A stretch of DNA of 64,000 nt, from the NCBI GenBank assembly GCA_022827025.1, contig JAJDTT010000075.1:1-64000 (forward strand). The letters are read 5' to 3'. The translations under genes were made by a program, and so were the position numbers. The notes under the pieces are model-generated. The model made no database searches and was not told the origin of the DNA. It saw nothing but the letters and a program-made list of their open reading frames with translations. Source of the stretch: Acidobacteriota bacterium (GTDB lineage Bacteria > Acidobacteriota > UBA6911 > RPQK01 > JAJDTT01). This document shows positions 19,424 to 64,000 of the stretch, piece after piece; the first letter of the stretch is position 1; each line of letters starts with the position of its first letter.

Positions 19424-21463
19424 CTACACCAGCAACGGTGCGATCACCAGCGCGACGATGGACATGAGCTTCACCAGGATGTTCATGGACGGACCGCTCG
19501 TGTCCTTGAACGGGTCCCCCACGGTGTCGCCCACCACGGCCGCCTTGTGGGCCTCCGAGCCCTTGCCTCCCAGGATGCCCTCCTCGATCATCTTCTTGGC
19601 GTTGTCCCAGGCGCCTCCCGCGTTGGCCATGAAGAGCGCCAGCAGCACGCCCACCAGCATCGACCCGGCCAGCATTCCCCCCAGAGAATGAGGTCCCAGC
19701 ACGAAACCGACGATGACCGGGGCCGCCACGGCGGTGATGCCCGGAGCCACCATCTCCTTCAGAGCCGCCCGGGTGGAGATATCGATGCACCGGGTGGTGT
19801 CGGGCTCGGCCTCGCCCTCCATGAGTCCCGGAATCTCCCGGAACTGGCGCCGCACCTCCTCCACCATCTTGAAGGCCGCGCGTCCCACCGAGGACATGGT
19901 GAGGTTCCCGATGAAGAAGGGAAGGGCTCCCCCGATGAAGAAGCCGACCACGACCCGGGGATCGATGAGATCCAGTTGAAGCTGCTTGCCGGGCAGACTC
20001 TGGGCCACGGTCTGGGAATAGGCCGAAAACAACGCCAGAGCGGTGAGCGCCGCCGAGCCGATGGCGAACCCCTTGCCGATGGCGGCCGTGGTGTTGCCGA
20101 GGGAATCCAGGCTGTCGGTGATCTTCCGGACGTCGGGCCCCAGGCCGCTCATCTCGGAGATCCCGCCGGCATTGTCCGCAATGGGACCGTAGGCGTCGAC
20201 CGACATGGTCACACCCACCGTCGCCAGCATGCCCACCGCGGCGATCCCGATGCCGTAGAGGCCGGCGAAGTTGTAGGCGACAAGGATGGTCCCGGCGATG
20301 GTCAGTATGGGGAGGGCCGTCGACTCCATCCCCACGGCAAGACCCGAGATGATGTTGGTGGCGACGCCGGTCTTGCACGATTCGGCGATGCGGCGGACCG
20401 GATTGCCCGAGGTGTACCACTCGGTAAGCAATCCGATGAGGACTCCCGCGGCGGCCCCCAGCAGGACCGCATAGAAGACGCCCGACTCGAGATCCAGTGT
20501 GCGTACCGCGAACCAGGTCCCTGCCAGGAGGAGCAGGGCGCTCACGTACGTGGCATTGCGGAGCACCGCAGCCGGACTGAGATTGCGGAGCACCCGAATG
20601 GAAACCACGCCGATGAGGGAGGCGATCAGGCCGATGGCGATGACCACCAGGGGAAACAGCATGTAGCGGCTCTTCTCCGCGGCCCCGATTATGAGAATCT
20701 GACTGGTCCCGGCCGCTGCGATGGCGATCGTGGCGATCACCGAGCCGACGTAGCTCTCGAAAATGTCCGCGCCCATGCCGGCCGTGTCGCCGACGCAATC
20801 GCCCACGTTGTCGGCGATGGTGGCCGGGTTTCTCGGGTCGTCCTCGGGAATTCCCGCTTCCACCTTGCCCACCAGGTCGGCTCCCACGTCCGCCGTCTTG
20901 GTATAGATTCCGCCTCCCACTCTGGCGAAAAGCGCGATGGAGCTGGCGCCCATGGCGAAGCCGTTGATGTCGCGCTCGGAAATGAAGCCGTTGCTGTAGA
21001 GCAGGTAGGCGATGCAGATTCCCAACATGCCCAGGCTGGCGACCGAGAGCCCCATCACGGCTCCTCCGGAGAAGGCCACGTTCAGGGCGTCGCCGATTCC
21101 GGAGGCGGAGGCGGCCTGGGTGGTGCGGACGTTGGCGCGGGTCGCCGCCTTCATGCCGAAGAAACCGGCGATCATGGAGAGGAACGCTCCGGCCAGGAAG
21201 GCCATTCCGGTACCCGCCGAAAGACTCCACCAGAGCAGGAGGAAGACCACCACGACAAAGATGGCCAGAATCCCGTATTCCCGGCGCAGAAACACCATGG
21301 CTCCGTCATGGATGGCGTCGGAGATGCGGCGCATCGTCTTGTTCCGAATGTCTATCCTGCTGATGAACCGGTAGATCAGGCCGGCCGCAAGGAGCCCGGC
21401 CAAGGCCACCGCGCCCACCGCGGGGACCAGTTCTCCAGCAGAAAGAAAGTTTGCATAGACCAT
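19424..21463 (-). CDS. hppA: Membrane-bound ion-translocating pyrophosphatase
   Basis: A 679-residue integral membrane pyrophosphatase with about 16 hydrophobic segments. It couples hydrolysis of pyrophosphate to export of H+ or Na+. The substrate loop is complete: [21 protein letters not shown] (cut here), then [21 protein letters not shown]; a second Asp-rich loop [19 protein letters not shown] and a third, [14 protein letters not shown], also hold. The segment [19 protein letters not shown] has Ala where K+-independent enzymes carry Lys, so it should belong to the K+-dependent subfamily. H+ versus Na+ specificity is not decided. It starts 14 bp after pth with AAAGGTGG before the ATG. Confidence 0.95.
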
Positions 21464-21477
21464 CGAAAACCCACCTT

Positions 21478-22068
21478 TCAGTTCAGTGGCCGGAGGTCTT
21501 CGTGCCTCCAGCCATTGACCAGGTCCATGGCCCGCAAATGGCCCTGGGTCATAATCGTGTCGACGGCCAGGACCGCACGGTCCAGTACGGAGTCCAGCCG
21601 CCGCCGCTCAGCTCCGGAGAAGGGCGAGAGCAGATAGTCGGTCAGATCGCCTTCCACCGCGTCGCCGCCCACTCCGATTCGCAGCCGGGGAATCTGTTTT
21701 GTTCCCAACATCCGAATGATCGATTCCATGCCCTTCTGTCCGCCCGAGCTCCCCGAACGCCGGACCCGCAATCGCCCCAAGGGCAACTGGACCTCGTCGT
21801 AGACGACAAGGACCTCCTCAGGATCGGCGCCATAGTGAACCAGCAGCGAGCGAACCGCGATTCCACTGAGATTCATGTAGGTCTGCGGTTTTGCCAGAAT
21901 CAGCGATCCGCTCTCACGCTCGACCCGGCAGGCTCGGGACCGGCCGGCTGCGGGAACGAACCGGCCAGCGCTCAAACCCGCCAGGCGGTCGACCAGCATG
22001 AACCCCGCGTTGTGTCGGGTCGCTGCGTACCTGCGGCCCGGATTGCCCAATCCGACGACCAGAAGCAC
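21478..22068 (-). CDS. pth: Peptidyl-tRNA hydrolase
   Basis: A 196-residue Pth, which frees tRNA from drop-off peptidyl-tRNA. Signatures: [27 protein letters not shown] with the catalytic His, [23 protein letters not shown] with its conserved Asp, and [17 protein letters not shown]. The start is the GTG at 22068: GGAG lies 8 nt before it, overlapping the rplY stop TAG, and the protein then has normal length. A longer in-frame upstream reading overlaps rplY and has no Pth character. rplY-pth order is common in bacteria. Confidence 0.95.
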
Positions 22069-22073
22069 CAGAG

Positions 22074-22730
22074 CTACTCCGCGGGTTGACTTCCTTCCGT
22101 CTGACCTCCCCCTGCGATTTCCGGTTCGGCGGCTTCGTCTTCCAGCATGATCTCTTCGGCTTCCGTCTCGACCGAGGGAGCTGCTATCGTCAGGACGGTC
22201 AGGTCCGGGTCGGAGAGAATCTTCACCTTGTCCGTGTCCACGTCCAGTTGTTCCACCCGGACCGAGTCTCCAATCTGCAGGTCGGTCACGTCGACTCGAA
22301 TGTGATCGGGCAGGTCCCCGGGGAGACACTCCAGGTGGATCTCGCGCACGACCAGGTCCAGAATACCCCCATACATCTTCACGCCGGCAGCCGTGCCCAA
22401 GGTCTCCACGGGTACGTCGAAGACCATGGTCCGGTCCATGGAGACGGCCAGGAAATCGGCATGGAGGAGCTCCTCCCCCACCGGATCACGCTGGAGCTCA
22501 CGAATCAGGACATTCGTCTCCTGGTCATGGTACTTCAGCCTGAAAATCGTGTTGTGGCCCGTTTCGGAGTGCAGGATCCGGTCCAGGTCCTTGGGATCGA
22601 CGGAAACGGCCACCGGCGCTACCTTGCGACCGTAGACGATTCCAGGCACCCGCCCAGCGGCGCGAAGCCTCCGGTTGGCGTTCTTCCCGAATTTCCGACG
22701 TATCTGCGAGTCCACCGTCAATCGAGGCAT
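22074..22730 (-). CDS. rplY: 50S ribosomal protein L25 (general stress protein Ctc type)
   Basis: A 218-residue L25 of the long Ctc type, binding 5S rRNA. The N-terminal domain has RRLRAAGRVPGIVYGRKVAPVAVSVDPKDL and the middle part FRLKYHDQETNVLIRELQRDPVGEELLHADF. The C-terminal beta domain (TL5_C) follows, with HLECLPGDLPDHIRVDVTDLQIGDSVRV, cut here to the key strand. It ends in a very acidic tail. The ATG at 22730 follows GGAGG closely. Lies 80 bp after prs and 5 bp before the pth start, the usual prs-rplY-pth arrangement. Confidence 0.95.
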   Translation of the reverse strand: MPRLTVDSQIRRKFGKNANRRLRAAGRVPGIVYGRKVAPVAVSVDPKDLDRILHSETGHNTIFRLKYHDQETNVLIRELQRDPVGEELLHADFLAVSMDRTMVFDVPVETLGTAAGVKMYGGILDLVVREIHLECLPGDLPDHIRVDVTDLQIGDSVRVEQLDVDTDKVKILSDPDLTVLTIAAPSVETEAEEIMLEDEAAEPEIAGGGQTEGSQPAE

Positions 22731-22810
22731 TTCCTCCAACTCCTCATTCCTGTGTTCGAGCCGCCCTGAGAAAGTGGGCAACCCGCGCAACTCGGTTTCC
22801 GCATTCAGGA

Positions 22811-23752
22811 TCAGCTTACGAACAACCGGCTCACCGAGGTTTCCTCGTGGATCGACCGGATCGCCTCGCCCAAAAGACCGGCCACGCTCAAGGTCTGAAT
22901 CTTGGGAATCCGCTTTTCCGGGCTGATCCACACCGTATTGGTGACGACAATTCCTTCGAAATGAGACTCGCGAAGGCGTTTCACGGCCGGCCCCGAAAGG
23001 ACGGCGTGGGTGGCGGCGGCGAAGAGCCTCCGGGCTCCCTGCTTCCGCAGGGCGTCCGTGGCCTGCACCAGGGTTCCCGCCGTGTCGACCATGTCGTCGA
23101 TGATGACCACGTCCCGGCCGTCGACATCGCCCACGATGCGCATGACCTCGGCCGTGTTCACGCCGACGCGGCGCTTGTCGATGACGGCCAGGTTGGCGCC
23201 CATCCTGCGGGCGTAGAAGCGAGCCCGCTCCACGCCGCCCGCATCGGGCGACACGACCGTGGGCCGGATCAGCGACATCTTGTTCTTCAAGTGGGAGAGG
23301 ATGGCCGGAGTGGCGAAGAGGTGGTCCACCGGAATGTTGAAAAACCCCTGGATCTGTCCCACGTGCAGGTCCATGGAAAGGAGCCGATGGGTTCCGGCCG
23401 CCGTCAGGAGATCCGCCACCAGCTTGGCCGAGATGGGCACTCGGGGTTTGTCCTTCCGGTCCTGGCGGGCGTAGCCGTAGTAGGGAACCACGGCCGTGAC
23501 TCGCCGTGCCGAGGAACGCCGAAAGGCATCCAGCATGATCAGGAGCTCCATCAGGTTCTCGCCCACCGGCGGGCAGGTGGGCTGCACCACGAAGACGTCC
23601 TTCCCTCTCACGTTCTCGAGAATCTGGAAATTGACCTCGCCGTCACTGAATCGGGTCAGGTTCGCCCGGCCCAGAGGTTCTCCCAGGTGATGGCAGATCT
23701 CTTCCGTGAGAGGGGCATTGGCGCTGCCTGTAAAGATCTTCAAACTGGACAT
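22811..23752 (-). CDS. prs: Ribose-phosphate pyrophosphokinase
   Basis: A 313-residue PRPP synthase. It transfers pyrophosphate from ATP to ribose-5-phosphate, feeding nucleotide, His and Trp synthesis. Signatures: FTGSANAPLTEEICHHLG at the start, SDGEVNFQILENVRGKDVFVVQ, YYGYARQDRKDKPRVPISAK (ATP-binding flexible loop), the PRPP-binding VVIIDDMVDTAGTL, and a typical C-terminus. Full length. Part of the ispE-prs-rplY-pth run, 56 bp after ispE. Confidence 0.97.
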   Translation of the reverse strand: MSSLKIFTGSANAPLTEEICHHLGEPLGRANLTRFSDGEVNFQILENVRGKDVFVVQPTCPPVGENLMELLIMLDAFRRSSARRVTAVVPYYGYARQDRKDKPRVPISAKLVADLLTAAGTHRLLSMDLHVGQIQGFFNIPVDHLFATPAILSHLKNKMSLIRPTVVSPDAGGVERARFYARRMGANLAVIDKRRVGVNTAEVMRIVGDVDGRDVVIIDDMVDTAGTLVQATDALRKQGARRLFAAATHAVLSGPAVKRLRESHFEGIVVTNTVWISPEKRIPKIQTLSVAGLLGEAIRSIHEETSVSRLFVS

Positions 23753-23808
23753 GGAGTCAATCCCGTGCCGGCCCGCTTCCGGATCCCATGCGGTCGGATC
23801 CGAAGTGG

Positions 23809-24735
23809 TCAGGCCGGAACGTCGAGGCCCGATTCTCTCAGTATTTTCCTATAACGTCTTCTGGAAAGAGTGGAGCAGAATAACAGTTCTCCGCCTCCCT
23901 GGCAGGCGGATGGGTCTTTCCTCCGTGGGGTCCGGTCCCGGCACCCCAAGCCCATGAGCGTCGAGCCGCTCCCACAAACCATGACTCTCTCACAACCCAA
24001 GGCGATGAGGGCTTTTCTCGCCTCCTCGAGAAAGCCATAGCGCTGGAACAGCGGCGTTTCGAAGTCGTTCTCCAGATGGGCCCAGTACAGGCTTTCTCTG
24101 AAGCGTGAGAAGCGATGGATTGTATTCTTCGTCCAGGATCTTGTCAACCTGTCGCCGCCCTCCCAGACGCCCCAATTCCCCATGGAATACACCCTCTTCG
24201 TGGAAAGACCGCGGCCCGGATAAAGGAGGACAAGGTCCACCGGGCGCCCAAGATCCGGCAAGGATGTGATGAGTTCTCCTCTGCCTTCTCCCAATGCGCA
24301 GCCTCCGCGGAGGAAGAATGCGACGTCGGAGCCCAACTCCGCCGCCAACGCAGTCAGGCTGGAGAGACTCAATCCGCAACCCCAGAGTTGGTTCAATCCC
24401 AGGAGGGTTGCCGCCGCATTCCCCGATCCGCCACCGAGTCCGGCCCCCAGGGGAATTCTCTTGGTCAGGGTCAATTCCACTCCGGCGGACACGCCCGCCT
24501 TTCGCTTCAGCAGCCGGGCGGCGCGGCAGACCAGGTTCTCCGGTCCCGCCGGCGCGGCGCGGCCATGAACCTGGATCCGAATTTCCGAATCCCTGGTGAC
24601 CCGCAGGATCAGCTCGTCCCTCAGGTCCAGCATCTGGAAGACGGTCCGCAACTCATGAAACCCGTCCTCCCGAAGACCCAGAATCTTCAGGATCCAGTTG
24701 GTCTTGGCAAAGGAGGGGAGAGCAAGTGAGGACAA
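23809..24735 (-). CDS. ispE: 4-diphosphocytidyl-2-C-methyl-D-erythritol kinase
   Basis: A 308-residue GHMP kinase, fourth enzyme of the non-mevalonate pathway. Signatures: LPSFAKTNWILKILGLREDGFHELRT (N-terminal strand with the substrate Lys; shown as family block), the ATP-binding loop PLGAGLGGGSGNAAATLLGL, and ELGSDVAFFLRGGCALGEGRG. The C-terminal GSGSTLMGLG matches the GSGpt motif. The start is TTG at 24735, since the conserved N-terminal strand begins six residues later and no ATG is available. The C-terminal part, after GLGCRDRTPRRKDP, is unusually basic and may not be well conserved. Confidence 0.93.
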   Translation of the reverse strand: MSSLALPSFAKTNWILKILGLREDGFHELRTVFQMLDLRDELILRVTRDSEIRIQVHGRAAPAGPENLVCRAARLLKRKAGVSAGVELTLTKRIPLGAGLGGGSGNAAATLLGLNQLWGCGLSLSSLTALAAELGSDVAFFLRGGCALGEGRGELITSLPDLGRPVDLVLLYPGRGLSTKRVYSMGNWGVWEGGDRLTRSWTKNTIHRFSRFRESLYWAHLENDFETPLFQRYGFLEEARKALIALGCERVMVCGSGSTLMGLGCRDRTPRRKDPSACQGGGELLFCSTLSRRRYRKILRESGLDVPA

Positions 24736-24797
24736 TGCGACGAATCAGGCCATGAAATGAGCGCGCCTGGTGGAGTTCCCGCGACGGCTGGCCGAGA

Positions 24798-26720
24798 TCA
24801 CGGGGCTTGCGAGGAGAGGCGCTGCTTCAGGTCGGCCACCTTGCGTTGAAGTCTATGGAATTCCTCGTCGGTGGCCACCCGAACACCCCGCTCGTAATAC
24901 TGAAGTGCGGTCTCGAGCTGGCCGAGCTCGATGTACAGGTCTCCCAGATGATCGAAAATTGTCGGGTCCTCCGTCAGCCGAGCCGCCCGTTTCAGATTGA
25001 CTTCGGCCTCATCGAGGCGATGCAACTTGAAGTAGACCCATCCCAGACTGTCCAGATAGGCTCCGTTGTACGGATCCATTTCCGTCGCTTTCCTGATGTA
25101 GGCCAACGCTTCGTGGAGACGGATTCCCCGATCCGCCCACATGTAGCCCAGATAGTTGAGAACGCCGGCATGGTCCGGATTCGACTCCAGAATCCTCATG
25201 AATTCGGCTTCGGCATCGGGAAGTTTCTCCTGCCGTTCGTAGACGGACGCCAGTCGAAACTGGAGCGGTTCACTGTCCGGCTTGAGACCGAGACCTTCCT
25301 TGATGGCTTTTTCGGCTTTCCCGTAGTTCTTGTGGTCCATGTAGAGTTGGCTGATGATGCGGTAATACGTCTCGGGATCCTGTTCGCGGCTCAATCTGGA
25401 TTGCACGAGTTTCACGCCTTCCGACAGCCGGTCGTTTGCCGAGAGCATCTGGGCTCGCGTCGCGAGGGCGTCCGGATCGCGCGGATGATCTTGGACCAAC
25501 TCCCCCGCCAGGGAAAGTGCCTCATCCAGCTTTCCCGCATCCTTCAAGGCGTAAATGAGCATGGCCTTGAATTGGGGTTCGCCGGGGCGCCCCGCCAGCA
25601 ACTCCCGAAACAGCCGGATGGCGTCCGTATATTGGCGTGATTCCTGGTGGACGTGGGCCAGCGTGGCCTGGACCCGTTCTCGAAACTCCCAGTCTGCCTG
25701 CGACCTTGGATCGCCCAGGTCGGCAAGAAGCCGCTGCAAACGCCCGATGGCGCTTTCCCGGTCTCCCCGAACCGCCTCGAGCCGAGACAATTCCAGGATC
25801 GCCAGTGTCTGCTTCGGATGGGTTTCCAGGACTCGGCCGAACACCTCCGTGGCCTCTTCAAACTTGCGGACCCGCATGAGAGCCTGGCCCAATTCAACCG
25901 CCAACGCCGGATCCTGCGGGTGCCGGGCCGTTCCCTTGCGCAGCAGTTCGACAGCTTGGTCGTGGCGCCCCTGTTGCCCCAGGAGACCTGCGGTGGTCAT
26001 CTGGAGTTTGGGGTCCGCCAGGAGCTGAGGGGCCGCCAGATAGATTTCCACGGCCCGATCCGGTCGTCCGGTCCTGACGTACAAGCGTCCGAGTTCGCGA
26101 ATGACTTCGTAGTGATCCCGCTGGATGTTCCAAGCTTTTTCCAGCGCCTGAATGGCCCCGGCCAGGTCGCCCAACCCCTCCAGGGCCTGGGCATGTTGGA
26201 AGTGGGCCTCGGGCAGACCCGGGCGCAACTCGACCAGACGCGCCAGGAAGGGCGCCGCCTTGCGGTGCTCGCGCCGCCGGAGATGGAGATTTCCCAACTG
26301 ATAGAGAGCCTCGGCATGGTCGGGGTCCAGCTCGATGACCTTGTTCAGTTCTACGATCGCCTTTTCCGAAAGTCGGCTTTGACCGCCGTGGTAGCTGGAA
26401 AAGAGCTGGCCCAGGAAGTAATGGGCGGCGACGCTGTCCGGATCCATTTCGATGGCCTGTTCGACCTCGCGGACAGCCCGGGAGATCTCCCCTGACCTCA
26501 CCAGGATATGGCCGAATTCAATCCGGAGCTGGATGCTGTCCGGATCGAGTTCCAGCGCTTTCTCGAACTCGGCGATGGAGAGGCCGAAGTCCTTGTTCCC
26601 CGAGTGGAGCGCGCCCAGGGCGAAGTGATAGTAGGCCTGGGCCTGCCGGTTCGGCGGCGTCGGGACCGGCTCGACGGCCACTACGGTCCCGAGAATGACT
26701 CCGAATACCAATCCGGTCAT
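24798..26720 (-). CDS. TPR-repeat protein, exported or membrane-anchored
   Basis: A 640-residue protein consisting almost wholly of tetratricopeptide repeats (about 14-16 helix pairs), for example the segments YYHFALGALHSGNKDFGLSI and AEALYQLGNLHLRRREHRKA. An N-terminal hydrophobic stretch (MTGLVFGVILGTVVAVEPVP) suggests a signal peptide or anchor. TPR proteins mediate protein-protein contacts; no enzymatic domain is present and the partner is unknown. The start is moved to the ATG at 26720 because a -35/-10 pair lies at 26758-26786, which would place an upstream in-frame start (26786) inside the promoter. First gene of the run leading into ispE. Confidence 0.85.
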   Translation of the reverse strand: MTGLVFGVILGTVVAVEPVPTPPNRQAQAYYHFALGALHSGNKDFGLSIAEFEKALELDPDSIQLRIEFGHILVRSGEISRAVREVEQAIEMDPDSVAAHYFLGQLFSSYHGGQSRLSEKAIVELNKVIELDPDHAEALYQLGNLHLRRREHRKAAPFLARLVELRPGLPEAHFQHAQALEGLGDLAGAIQALEKAWNIQRDHYEVIRELGRLYVRTGRPDRAVEIYLAAPQLLADPKLQMTTAGLLGQQGRHDQAVELLRKGTARHPQDPALAVELGQALMRVRKFEEATEVFGRVLETHPKQTLAILELSRLEAVRGDRESAIGRLQRLLADLGDPRSQADWEFRERVQATLAHVHQESRQYTDAIRLFRELLAGRPGEPQFKAMLIYALKDAGKLDEALSLAGELVQDHPRDPDALATRAQMLSANDRLSEGVKLVQSRLSREQDPETYYRIISQLYMDHKNYGKAEKAIKEGLGLKPDSEPLQFRLASVYERQEKLPDAEAEFMRILESNPDHAGVLNYLGYMWADRGIRLHEALAYIRKATEMDPYNGAYLDSLGWVYFKLHRLDEAEVNLKRAARLTEDPTIFDHLGDLYIELGQLETALQYYERGVRVATDEEFHRLQRKVADLKQRLSSQAP

Positions 26721-26757
26721 AACGGCTCGACGGCTATGGGCAAGAAAAATCAGGCTG

Positions 26758-26786
26758 ATAGTATCCAACTCCACGCGGCGCGACAA
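26758..26786 (-). promoter_or_regulatory. Promoter of the TPR-ispE-prs block
   Basis: On the minus strand TTGTCG (26781-26786) and TACTAT (26758-26763) are exactly 17 bp apart. Transcription would start near 26750, about 30 nt before the ATG at 26720. This is the evidence used to reject the longer reading of the TPR protein. Confidence 0.55.
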
Positions 26787-26876
26787 CCGTCCGGGAGAGA
26801 TGTGAGGAGTGAGAAACGAGATGCGGGAACGAAGATTGAAAAGGAAAGAACGATGAGCCCGGGGACTCTTTCGCCG

Positions 26877-29789
26877 TCAATCGATGACCTGCGGAGGGAT
26901 GATCGATATCTTTTCGAGATCTTCCGTAAAGATGAGCTCCATCACCACGATCGGCTGGTCGGAAGACACGGCGATGTAGCCGCCGATGGCCGCCGGCAGA
27001 CCGGAAAAGATCTCGTGAGCCATCGCGACCCGGCGGTGGCCGTTCTCCAAGGTCAGGGTCGTTTCCTCGACCAATGAGTTTCCACCGGTGGAGCGGACCG
27101 TCAGCTTGACGGTTGCCGCCGGGCCGGATCCGGGATTGAGAAACACCAGGCCGGTCCTGTACTTCTCGACTCCCCCGTGGGCAAGGTAGGGCAGGACGTA
27201 CTCCTTGGCCGGTGACGTCACAGCCGGGGTGCTGATCATGCCCTTTCCGGAAAAGAGCTGCAATTCGGCGCTGCCCACCAGCCCCGGCTGCGAGCCGTCG
27301 ATCCGAATCCAGCCGGATACCAGGCCTCCCGTGTCCACGAGGTTGGGAAAGATGGAGGCCATTTCCATGCGCAGGCCCTCTCCCGGAGCCAACTCCAGCA
27401 TGGGCGCAACCTCCACGGAATTCCCATCGTTGTCCATCAGGGTGATCTTGACCGTCATCTCCTCAGCGCCCTGATGCACCAGGTTGACGTGGGTCTGGCT
27501 GCCGCCGAAGGTCACCGCCTGGGGCAGATAGAGAGTCTCGGCCGGGACGACTCCCGGGGCTTCCACCACCAGCCCGTCCACCATGGCCATGCGCTCCTCG
27601 TCGTACCAGCGCTGGTAGGCCATGATCCCCTGCTCGCTCTCCACCGTCATGTAGGAGCCGTCGTAGCCGTTATCGGTCAAGGGACTGCAGGTCGCCTGTT
27701 CGGGGTCCTCGCAAGCGGCCAGGCTGTCGTCGCGGCAGGGCTCGCCGTTGTCCGAGCAGGTCCCTTTCTGACAGTAGAAGTCGTCCAGGAAGATCCCGCC
27801 GGTGGAAAAGCACTCGAAGGCGAGTCCTTGAAAGAAACCGATCTCGTCTCCCAGAGCTCCCCGCAACACCAGGCCCCCGAGGGTGTTCCGGGTATCTTCG
27901 AGGACGAGGTCTCCCTCTGCCGTGTAGAGGCGGACGGAGACGTCCGTGCTGTTGGAGTTGGGATTGAGGACGGAGACCTCGGTGGTGAAGCCGTCCTTGA
28001 CCCGGACTTCGGGAAGGACGACCTTCTGCGCCGTCGTGGAGTACAAGGAGGCGGCATCCAGACGGCGCCGTTCCCCGCGGTCCCCGATCCTGAAGAACCC
28101 CCGGGCGCGGGCCTGGTCGTCGTCCAGCAGCATCCAGCCTTCCATGAACTGGTTGCGTTCGGCGCTGACCACTTCCCGAACCGTGGTGGACAACTGTCCC
28201 CGGGGAACGATGGTCAGGTTGGTGGGATTCTCGCCGAACTCCACGATGTCTTCCGTGTCGTTGAGATCCTGAAATCGGATCCCGCCCACGTTGACTCCCC
28301 GGGCCATGATGTCGCTGGTCCGGGAGGAGAGGTTGGTCAGGTTCACCGCGGTGAACCATTCCTTGGAGCTCAACATGTAGGGAAGGAACAGGCGGCGGCT
28401 GGGGCGCAGCAGTTCGATGGTGCCGAGGTTGAAATTCACCGCGGTTATCGCCTCTCCGTCGGGACTCACGGCCACGTCCAGTGGAGCCCCGGGAACCTCG
28501 GGCCGGAGGTCCTCGCTGAAGCCCCGCAACTTCTGTCCCACCAATACGGGTTGCAGGAGCTCGCCCGTATTCAATTTGAATTGCAGCAGGACGTCGTCCA
28601 TGGGCGCGCCCAGCATCATGGTGGTTCCGTCCAGGAAGACCGGACGGCTGGAGTCGCGAAAATCGGAAGTCCGCGGTTGGAAACTGACGACTTCCAGGCT
28701 GTCCGCATCGATGGCGCCGTTCTCATCGGGGACGGGAACCGGGACCAACTGCAGGTTCAGATTGCTGAGCACCACGAACCACTTGCCATCCGGAGTCGGC
28801 ACGATCTCGACGGGGACGCCGCCCACCTCGAAGATCTTCACTACCTGGCCCGTCTGCATGTCGAACAGAGTGGCCCGGTCCCTTCCCAACTCGGCCAGCG
28901 TCTGCAGGGCCCCCAGTTGCCGGTCCGCCACCAGCCCATACCGGCCGTCCGAAGAGATGGCGGCCCCCGCGCCCACCTGGAAATCATGAGGAGGGGCCTC
29001 TTGTTCCGGATCCGGAATGATGGTCGCCGCCACGGAGAAGGAAGCGGTGTCCACGATGGTGATGGCGTCCCTTTCCTCCGCGGGAGTCAACAGGGTCGAC
29101 CCGACCGTGACCACGAAGAACCGGCTCCCGTCGGGAGTCATTCGGAGGGTCGTGGGACGGGTTCCACCCGGCATCTGGAGTCTGGGTTCCACTTCCTGGA
29201 GGGTAGTCGTGTCGAAACGAAGGATCTCGTCGGTCCCGGACGAGGCCACGATGCCCATGGCCCCATCTCCCGAGAAGACCATGTTGTTGGCGACGGAGAA
29301 GAAAGCCTCCATCGTCAGGATCTGAACCTCCAGCGTGTCCACGTCGATGGCCGCGATCGCTCCCTGAACCGGCTGCGTCTCTTCCTGGGAGGCATCGGAC
29401 CTGAAGGCGTCGGCCCGGCCATTTTCGTTGATGAACGCGCACAGGACCGCGATGCGGTCCCCGCCGGGCATGAGGGCGATGTGGCCCGGGCTCTCGGGCA
29501 TGTCCACGAGGCCCAGAATGTCGCCGGTCTTGGGGTTGAAGGCCAGGACCTTGTTCGAGAAGGTGTAGCTGACGAAGGCCTTGCTCGAGTCCGGAGTAAA
29601 GACCACATTGGGGGAAAAATTGAGATCGCTCTGGCCGGGCCCGAGTATCAAGGGCACCTCGTTGGGATCGATTCGCAACGGGTCCTCGGACTCGCTCGGA
29701 TCCAGCGTCATGAATACCCGCTGGCCGCGAAGTGCCGGCCCCCCCGGGCTCAGCAAGACGAACAGAAGAATCACCAGGAGTCTGCGCAT
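26877..29789 (-). CDS. Secreted beta-propeller protein with four C-terminal beta-sandwich-like repeats
   Basis: A 970-residue exported protein of unknown role. A signal peptide (MRRLLVILLFVLLSPGGPA) is followed by a YVTN/SMP-30-type beta-propeller, about residues 30-460, with blades such as FTPDSSKAFVSYTFSNKVL and MTPDGSRFFVVTVGS. After it come four copies of a repeat with the pattern LP-x(5-9)-[FY]-x-T-x-V-x-hydrophobic-x-N, a spacer, then a strand ending in G-N/D. They begin near residues 467, 589, 751 and 862. A Cys-rich insert (eight Cys, about residues 658-705) sits between repeats 2 and 3, probably disulfide-linked, as fits an extracytoplasmic protein. The ATG at 29789 directly follows a promoter and starts the signal peptide. 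Adhesion or ligand binding is a guess. Confidence 0.8.
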   Translation of the reverse strand: MRRLLVILLFVLLSPGGPALRGQRVFMTLDPSESEDPLRIDPNEVPLILGPGQSDLNFSPNVVFTPDSSKAFVSYTFSNKVLAFNPKTGDILGLVDMPESPGHIALMPGGDRIAVLCAFINENGRADAFRSDASQEETQPVQGAIAAIDVDTLEVQILTMEAFFSVANNMVFSGDGAMGIVASSGTDEILRFDTTTLQEVEPRLQMPGGTRPTTLRMTPDGSRFFVVTVGSTLLTPAEERDAITIVDTASFSVAATIIPDPEQEAPPHDFQVGAGAAISSDGRYGLVADRQLGALQTLAELGRDRATLFDMQTGQVVKIFEVGGVPVEIVPTPDGKWFVVLSNLNLQLVPVPVPDENGAIDADSLEVVSFQPRTSDFRDSSRPVFLDGTTMMLGAPMDDVLLQFKLNTGELLQPVLVGQKLRGFSEDLRPEVPGAPLDVAVSPDGEAITAVNFNLGTIELLRPSRRLFLPYMLSSKEWFTAVNLTNLSSRTSDIMARGVNVGGIRFQDLNDTEDIVEFGENPTNLTIVPRGQLSTTVREVVSAERNQFMEGWMLLDDDQARARGFFRIGDRGERRRLDAASLYSTTAQKVVLPEVRVKDGFTTEVSVLNPNSNSTDVSVRLYTAEGDLVLEDTRNTLGGLVLRGALGDEIGFFQGLAFECFSTGGIFLDDFYCQKGTCSDNGEPCRDDSLAACEDPEQATCSPLTDNGYDGSYMTVESEQGIMAYQRWYDEERMAMVDGLVVEAPGVVPAETLYLPQAVTFGGSQTHVNLVHQGAEEMTVKITLMDNDGNSVEVAPMLELAPGEGLRMEMASIFPNLVDTGGLVSGWIRIDGSQPGLVGSAELQLFSGKGMISTPAVTSPAKEYVLPYLAHGGVEKYRTGLVFLNPGSGPAATVKLTVRSTGGNSLVEETTLTLENGHRRVAMAHEIFSGLPAAIGGYIAVSSDQPIVVMELIFTEDLEKISIIPPQVID

Positions 29790-63742: not shown

Positions 63743-64000
63743 ATGTCGGGTTTCAGAATTCTAATCTTGTCCATTTTCTGCGGGGCGGTCCTGGCACAGG
63801 ACCAAACCGTATACATTGCCCAGGTGGGTCATGGCGGCGGGTTCGAGACGACCCTCAGTTTTGTCGGACTCACCAACACGACGACCAACGTCCTGATCGA
63901 AACCTTCGACAACGCCGGCGATCCCGCCGCGCTGCTGGACAGGCCTGAGATCGTTACCAACATCGGCGTTGCTGGAGGTGGTGGCGGAGCGGCCAGCAGT
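63743..64000 (+). CDS. Secreted protein, truncated by the window edge
   Basis: The first 86 codons of a longer gene. GGAGG lies 7 nt before the ATG. A signal peptide (SGFRILILSIFCGAVLAQD) is followed by TVYIAQVGHGGGFETTLSFV and GLTNTTTNVLIETFDNAGD. This matches the pattern of the four repeats in the propeller protein at 26877-29789. It ends here in a Gly-rich stretch (GVAGGGGGAAS) at the edge. Whether more repeats follow cannot be seen. Confidence 0.7.
   Translation, partial: MSGFRILILSIFCGAVLAQDQTVYIAQVGHGGGFETTLSFVGLTNTTTNVLIETFDNAGDPAALLDRPEIVTNIGVAGGGGGAASS

Follow-up and report, generated by a model that had tools for sequence, protein, structure and literature searches.

The ASRAH superfamily was described by De Souza et al. 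in 2009 (PMC2739507). It includes ASRT, the Anabaena sensory rhodopsin transducer, a single-domain intracellular tetramer with the signature SHExxCxxN and a tryptophan in strand 1, and also secreted dyads and tetrads: in a second family (Chloroflexi amidases) a tetrad is fused to an N-acetylmuramoyl-L-alanine amidase, and a third is an actinobacterial lipoprotein, a dyad with a lipobox, encoded beside WhiB and a glycosyltransferase. According to the same analysis, each sandwich has a cleft on one sheet, lined by strand 2; in the TM1070 tetramer neighbouring units help to wall each other's cleft, and binding of a sugar or small molecule there was proposed, not proven (PMC2739507). Among the papers listed by a text search for ASRAH (18 of 19), only this one concerned the domain by its title. 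Here we describe P0001, a protein of 970 amino acids (aa) encoded on the minus strand at positions 29789-26877, stop included, of the window, that is, the whole 64,000-nt stretch of Acidobacteriota DNA that was analysed. The gene (26877..29789) codes for a signal peptide, a beta-propeller and four ASRT/DUF5719-like units, and we read the product, with a probability of about 0.6, as an exported YVTN-type propeller joined to an A-B-A-B tetrad of ASRT/ASRAH beta-sandwiches with a non-catalytic binding role.

The sequence-only reading had placed four tandem copies of a repeat behind a beta-propeller, and this was borne out. The strings it quoted begin exactly at residues 467, 589, 751 and 862. The working boundaries used here, all on the minus strand, are residues 461-587 for unit 1 (A type; 28029..28409), 588-748 for unit 2 (B type, with a Cys-rich insert; 27546..28028), 749-861 for unit 3 (A type; 27207..27545) and 862-970 for unit 4 (B type, the C-terminal end of P0001; 26880..27206). 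Units 1 and 2 are assigned from profile-profile scores, unit 1 without a confident model and unit 2 with a poor one; unit 3 from an AlphaFold2 model of TM1070-like fold matching 1nc7; unit 4 from beta-strands in the joint model of units 3-4 and from an ASRT profile match. When single sequences were compared, five of the six unit pairs had scores that very few of 500 shuffles reached (between 0 and 6), and the pair of units 1 and 4 did not rise above chance (reached by 496/500). Profile-profile comparison related all six pairs, with scores of 40-102 (units 1 and 2, 40.0; 1 and 3, 94.5; 1 and 4, 67.4; 2 and 3, 56.3; 2 and 4, 102.1; 3 and 4, 101.0), the maximum being 16.5 in 72 reversed or shuffled control comparisons and 20.2 in 16 propeller-versus-unit controls; the profiles were made from 16 of 20 aligned orthologues, leaving out L022 and the incomplete L025, L026 and L034. 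By these sequence comparisons the four units are homologous. The pairs 2-4, 3-4 and 1-3 are the strongest and the pairs 1-2 and 2-3 the weakest, which fits a two-unit A-B block duplicated to A-B-A-B.

The propeller, of YVTN or surface-layer type, spans about residues 28-462 (28404..29708, minus strand). A profile of 12 orthologues matched the surface layer protein 1l0q (E 4.6e-23; a likeness of the N-terminal propeller, this part alone having been compared), hydrazine synthase beta (E 3.6e-15) and YncE (E 2e-5), with 22 distinct solved-structure sequences at E 0.001, propellers for the most part. Residues 1-23 (29721..29789, same strand) were read by eye and with a crude pattern as a probable signal peptide without a lipobox cysteine, and with this hydrophobic signal-like N-terminus P0001 is probably exported. 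Orthologues spanning residues 1-970 are present in all four genomes of the genus, its own genome counted; near relatives are L008 ('Candidatus Aminicenantes bacterium'), 93% identical, and L009 ('uncultured Acidobacteriota bacterium'), 89% identical.

The fold was approached with an AlphaFold2 model of units 3-4 (predicted local distance difference test score, pLDDT, 78.9; predicted template modelling score, pTM, 0.77), for which the other rows of the input were units 1-2 and two named relatives only. The best solved structure found with Foldseek was TM1070 of Thermotoga (1nc7; E 3.6e-6; TM 0.76 by target length). Unit 3 of the model superposes on 1nc7 with Z 14.3 and a root-mean-square deviation of 2.2 over 104 residues (model range 2-113); four ASRT entries reach Z 11.0-11.1, and the next row outside the family 6.3. 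The rows for FlgD, complement C5 and a glycosidase sandwich (Z about 5-6) were discounted as the likeness that beta-sandwiches commonly share. Modelled unit 3 is thus an eight-stranded beta-sandwich of TM1070 type; the TM1070 row covers this unit, and unit 4 consists of beta-strands there. Units 1-2 yielded no usable model (pLDDT 38.7), and therefore no four-way superposition is given. An Ig- or beta-sandwich-like nature had been suggested for the units: the sandwich stands, as modelled for units 3-4, and the Ig type is not favoured, TM1070 scoring far above the Ig-type sandwiches among the matches listed. Sequence profiles of the units, searched against solved structures, gave only weak matches to unrelated proteins (best E 0.0074), and so did the profiles of the sister tetrad L145.

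Pfam DUF5719 (PF18986) scores 31.2 bits on the whole of P0001 against a curated gathering cut-off of 26.2. The match consists of two stretches, the best at 747-918 (units 3-4), and each is under the cut-off when taken singly (20.8 bits for units 3-4, 16.2 bits for the start of unit 2), so that a known Pfam domain covers the units in part. With 319 positions the model is longer than one unit, and it misses many unit copies; it labels 2 of 11 scanned proteins of the own genome (P0001 and L119, at E 0.01 or better) and 12 of 40 of the single-contig relative G019 (E 0.001). No function is stated for DUF5719, and a text search of a literature library found no paper with that name. The earlier description as an uncharacterised repeat for which no family can be named is therefore partly supported: many copies do go unlabelled, but a family can be named, by DUF5719 and by the fold and profile links to ASRT/ASRAH. 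We take the distribution of DUF5719 to be actinobacterial, and infer that it is the actinobacterial lipoprotein family of the 2009 ASRAH paper.

ASRT itself (PF07100) emerged when all 24,736 Pfam models were run on the sister tetrad L145: it matches unit 4 (E 8e-4, 19.8 bits), and DUF5719 matches unit 2 (28.2 bits). Across 297 genomes of the phylum, PF07100 passed its cut-off in four matches and fell short of it in three. Two of these three are in G151, and the other, in G016 (C235:7707-7949; E 1.1e-4, 23.5 bits), lies within a place found separately by the unit-pair profile. At E 0.001 PF07100 has no match in the own genome. As finders of the units, PF07100 or DUF5719 alone were rejected as too narrow. 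In profile comparisons with four ASRT sequences (60 controls for each profile), a 125-unit profile scored 35.5 (control maximum 14.7), the profile of unit 4, best of the four, 39.9 (control maximum 18.1), and that of unit 2 20.7. With a hidden Markov model (HMM) of ASRT, 20 of 173 units outscored every one of 1,730 shuffled units. Conservation in the units is highest at the asparagine ending strand 2, present in 114 of the 120 units of an inclusion set chosen by profile similarity and aligned with the nearly invariant asparagine of ASRT; P0001 has it in three of its four units, unit 3 carrying His772 instead. Judged from the modelled fold, where the match is strong, and from sequence evidence that is weaker but concordant, the units very probably belong to the ASRT/ASRAH superfamily, as a secreted branch partly covered by DUF5719.

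Several observations weigh against this placement. Both PF07100 matches to units (L145 and G016) are below the Pfam cut-off of 25; the profiles of units 1 and 3 score 15.0 and 16.7 against ASRT, within the control range; 153 of the 173 units do not beat the best shuffle with the ASRT HMM; and the model of units 1-2 is poor. Among the 136 units with a recognisable strand 2, the strand-1 tryptophan is found in 9 (0/4 in P0001, vs 4/4 ASRT sequences) and the signature histidine at -7 in none, the SHExxCxxN hallmark being absent. Modest, sub-threshold scores, a missing hallmark and two of four unit profiles not above controls would also suit convergence, the units then being an independent beta-sandwich family known only as DUF5719. 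We consider this very unlikely: the fold score is far above that of other sandwiches, the Pfam match of ASRT to L145 came unprompted, shuffled controls are beaten by the 125-unit and unit-4 profiles and with the ASRT HMM, and the conserved asparagine aligns with that of ASRT. The units are accordingly taken as homologous to ASRT, and as a separate secreted branch outside the three described families because the strand-1 tryptophan and the signature histidine are absent.

Like ASRT/TM1070 (PF07100), P0001 shows the unit 3 fold, the strand-2 asparagine and the profile link; it differs in being exported, tandem and multidomain, and is neither a stand-alone intracellular protein nor a bearer of the SHEshChhN motif of the first family. 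The secreted families of 2009 are likewise dyads or tetrads, one of them enzyme-fused (PMC2739507). P0001 has the tetrad without the amidase, which was not found either in 10 own-genome and 30 G019 unit proteins scanned singly by Pfam; unlike the lipoprotein dyad it has four units and no lipobox cysteine, and there is no WhiB among nine neighbours scanned by Pfam. It further differs from these families in its host phylum, in the propeller and the many other partners of the units, and in its neighbours (TPR, ispE, prs, rplY). The repeat of P0001 is real and largely explained: its units form a new branch of an already described superfamily, joined to the propeller in an unusual layout and greatly expanded in the class.

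A match to at least part of P0001 was found in all 38 genomes of the class, the own genome included, and the pair profile at 1e-5 finds 38/38 in the class and at least 39/358 elsewhere in the phylum sample, with up to about 7 candidates scored per genome. The profile of units 3-4 matches 27 places in the own genome (E 0.01), 83 in G019 (E 0.001) and at least 111 in G022 (E 0.01). Sixty-three open reading frames (ORFs) with units were read, 23 from the own genome and 40 from G019, drawn from 20 and 40 hit regions, respectively, those of G019 taken strongest first. Pfam partners of the units are M10, trypsin-like and subtilase proteases, leucine-rich repeats (LRRs), NHL, PQQ and sortilin-type propellers; glucose/sorbosone dehydrogenase, Cache, metallophosphatase and alpha-2-macroglobulin domains; and, linked to glycans, GH3, GH9, CBM4_9 and cohesin. 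Some unit proteins, among them L143, L155, L157, L165 and L177, were without any Pfam match at E 0.001.

More than four units per ORF were never seen. Among 161 distinct, partly redundant ORFs, in which weak units may have been missed, there are four units in 98, two in 32, three in 15 and one in 16; the corresponding numbers (four, two, three and one) are 35, 17, 6 and 12 for the 70 ORFs closed at both ends and 26, 18, 7 and 12 for the 63-ORF set. These numbers bear on the view that the units are inert Ig-like spacers, a stalk keeping the propeller off the membrane without a binding role. Tandem beta-sandwiches are common stalks, the partner domains are very diverse, and the strongly conserved positions are the turn asparagine, one threonine and two glycines, with no surface cluster shown, all of which a spacer would accommodate. 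The copy number of a stalk should be free, yet four is never exceeded and 130 of the 161 ORFs have two or four units; a two-type alternation in well-preserved tetrads does not suit a spacer, nor does a dyad without any other domain. We regard the spacer as unlikely.

Such a dyad is encoded at the end of the window (63743..64000, plus strand), where a second gene of the family, a signal-like sequence and two units only, starts and continues past the window end. Its 258-aa open frame (L118, 1726-2499) has units at 27-141 and 164-247, and neither Pfam nor NCBIfam matches it at E 0.01.

Of 53 ORFs whose stop is in view, 39 have a unit array that ends no more than 30 residues from the C-terminus, vs 8.3 expected for random placement, as would be the case for a domain that directs sorting or secretion from the C-terminus, like that of type IX secretion. 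In ten more ORFs, however, the array is followed by 319 or more residues, which brings the C-terminal share to 39/63; an 'always C-terminal' reading was rejected on this count. In L160, L174 and L138 the units lie close to the N-terminus and precede GH3, GH9 or subtilase domains, and a search for TIGR04183 tails at E 0.01 was negative in the own genome and positive in 3 of 14 control genomes. SprA_N likewise has no match, but with none in the control genomes either this has little weight. A sorting role is on this evidence distinctly improbable. Similar dyads and tetrads are widely re-used, on exported proteins and at their C-terminus in the majority of cases.

The favoured reading is that the units are binding domains without catalytic activity, for which, by analogy with the described clefts, the odds are somewhat better than even. 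In its favour are the ceiling of four units, the existence of dyads, the re-use of the units as modules and their occasional pairing with glycosidase and CBM domains. In each sandwich strand 2 would line a cleft on one of the sheets, which adjacent units would help to wall, so that the covalent tetrad would be a TM1070-like tetramer within one chain. The likeliest ligand would be a cell-surface or extracellular glycan, and through the module the domain joined to it (propeller, protease, glycosidase or LRR) would be kept at a polysaccharide or at the envelope of the cell itself. Four points speak against a binding role of this kind. The ASRT pocket residues are absent from the units; the sugar-binding proposal for ASRAH is itself an inference (PMC2739507); most partner domains, such as trypsin, M10, LRR, alpha-2-macroglobulin and sortilin-type propellers, do not act on carbohydrates; and with HMMs trained on P0001 orthologues the exact order A-B-A-B was found in 11 of 62 other ORFs. 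Strict A-B-A-B for all paralogues was rejected on this last count; divergent ORFs score mostly B-like, and alternation is therefore not shown there. A more speculative version, which we hold only tentatively, is that the tetrads are single-chain hetero-tetramers in which two A and two B units pack as in TM1070, A and B serving different faces of one glycan, the whole being an interchangeable surface-attachment unit.

Individual proteins of the family were also noted. Two of the own genome, L121:2-3529 (plus strand, C275) and L129:1-4863 (minus strand, C38), are LRR proteins with the same units; in L121 the units follow the LRRs, in L129 they precede them, and L129 has metallopeptidase-like matches at its end. 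In L128, L130, L133, L134 and L135 (own genome) the units have in common a type of C-terminal sequence, TTLPVVPV or close to it. Pfam assigns Cache domains to the first L128 protein, the likeness of the others was seen by eye, and the group may consist of paralogous extracellular binding proteins. In G019, L146:993-6701 (minus strand) codes for an alpha-2-macroglobulin-like protein (MG2, MG3, bait region, thioester domain) that ends in an A-B-A-B tetrad.

The Cys-rich insert of unit 2 (residues 660-701; 27687..27812, minus strand) has six cysteines in 42 residues. Orthologue comparison places it in all four members of the genus, vs none of the 13 other orthologues that cover the site, although L019 among them carries an acidic insert of another kind at this point. 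The insert is possibly a disulphide-held loop.

Directly downstream of P0001, at 24798..26786 on the minus strand, lies a TPR protein (Pfam TPR_19, E 4.1e-61), a conserved neighbour that adjoins the propeller gene on the same strand in 9 of 20 fetched orthologous loci. Both belong to a one-strand run at 19424-29789 (minus) of propeller gene, TPR, ispE, prs, rplY, pth and H+-pyrophosphatase, as named by Pfam. The order propeller gene-TPR-ispE-prs-rplY is kept in 9/20 loci, which represent five families of the class, and in eight of them pth follows; in the other 11 loci the neighbours were cut off by contig ends or not seen. Pfam gave TPR, GHMP kinase, PRPP synthetase, L25 and Pth on one side of P0001, and HNH, DUF2064 (presumably glycosyltransferase-related) and TonB on the other. 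No relative of P0001 was found in viral contigs, and units 3-4 had no tblastn match at E 0.01 in plasmid and phage collections. Given its conserved order beside housekeeping genes, the propeller gene is an old resident of this place in those lineages, and not mobile.

What is new here are dyads and tetrads, A-B-A-B where best preserved, fused to proteases, glycosidases, LRRs and propellers. For DUF5719 and for a large set of poorly labelled Acidobacteriota repeats, this supplies a fold, a superfamily and a role open to testing. The ASRT superfamily, whose extracellular roles have rested on the 2009 prediction, is extended to a lineage in which it is abundant enough for study, and a cytoplasmic light-signalling partner is linked to extracellular modules with a putative binding role. 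If the attachment proposal is true, dozens of exported enzymes and receptors of this Acidobacteriota class would carry the tetrad as a general-purpose attachment unit, comparable in role to dockerin or S-layer-homology modules but with the fold of the rhodopsin transducer.

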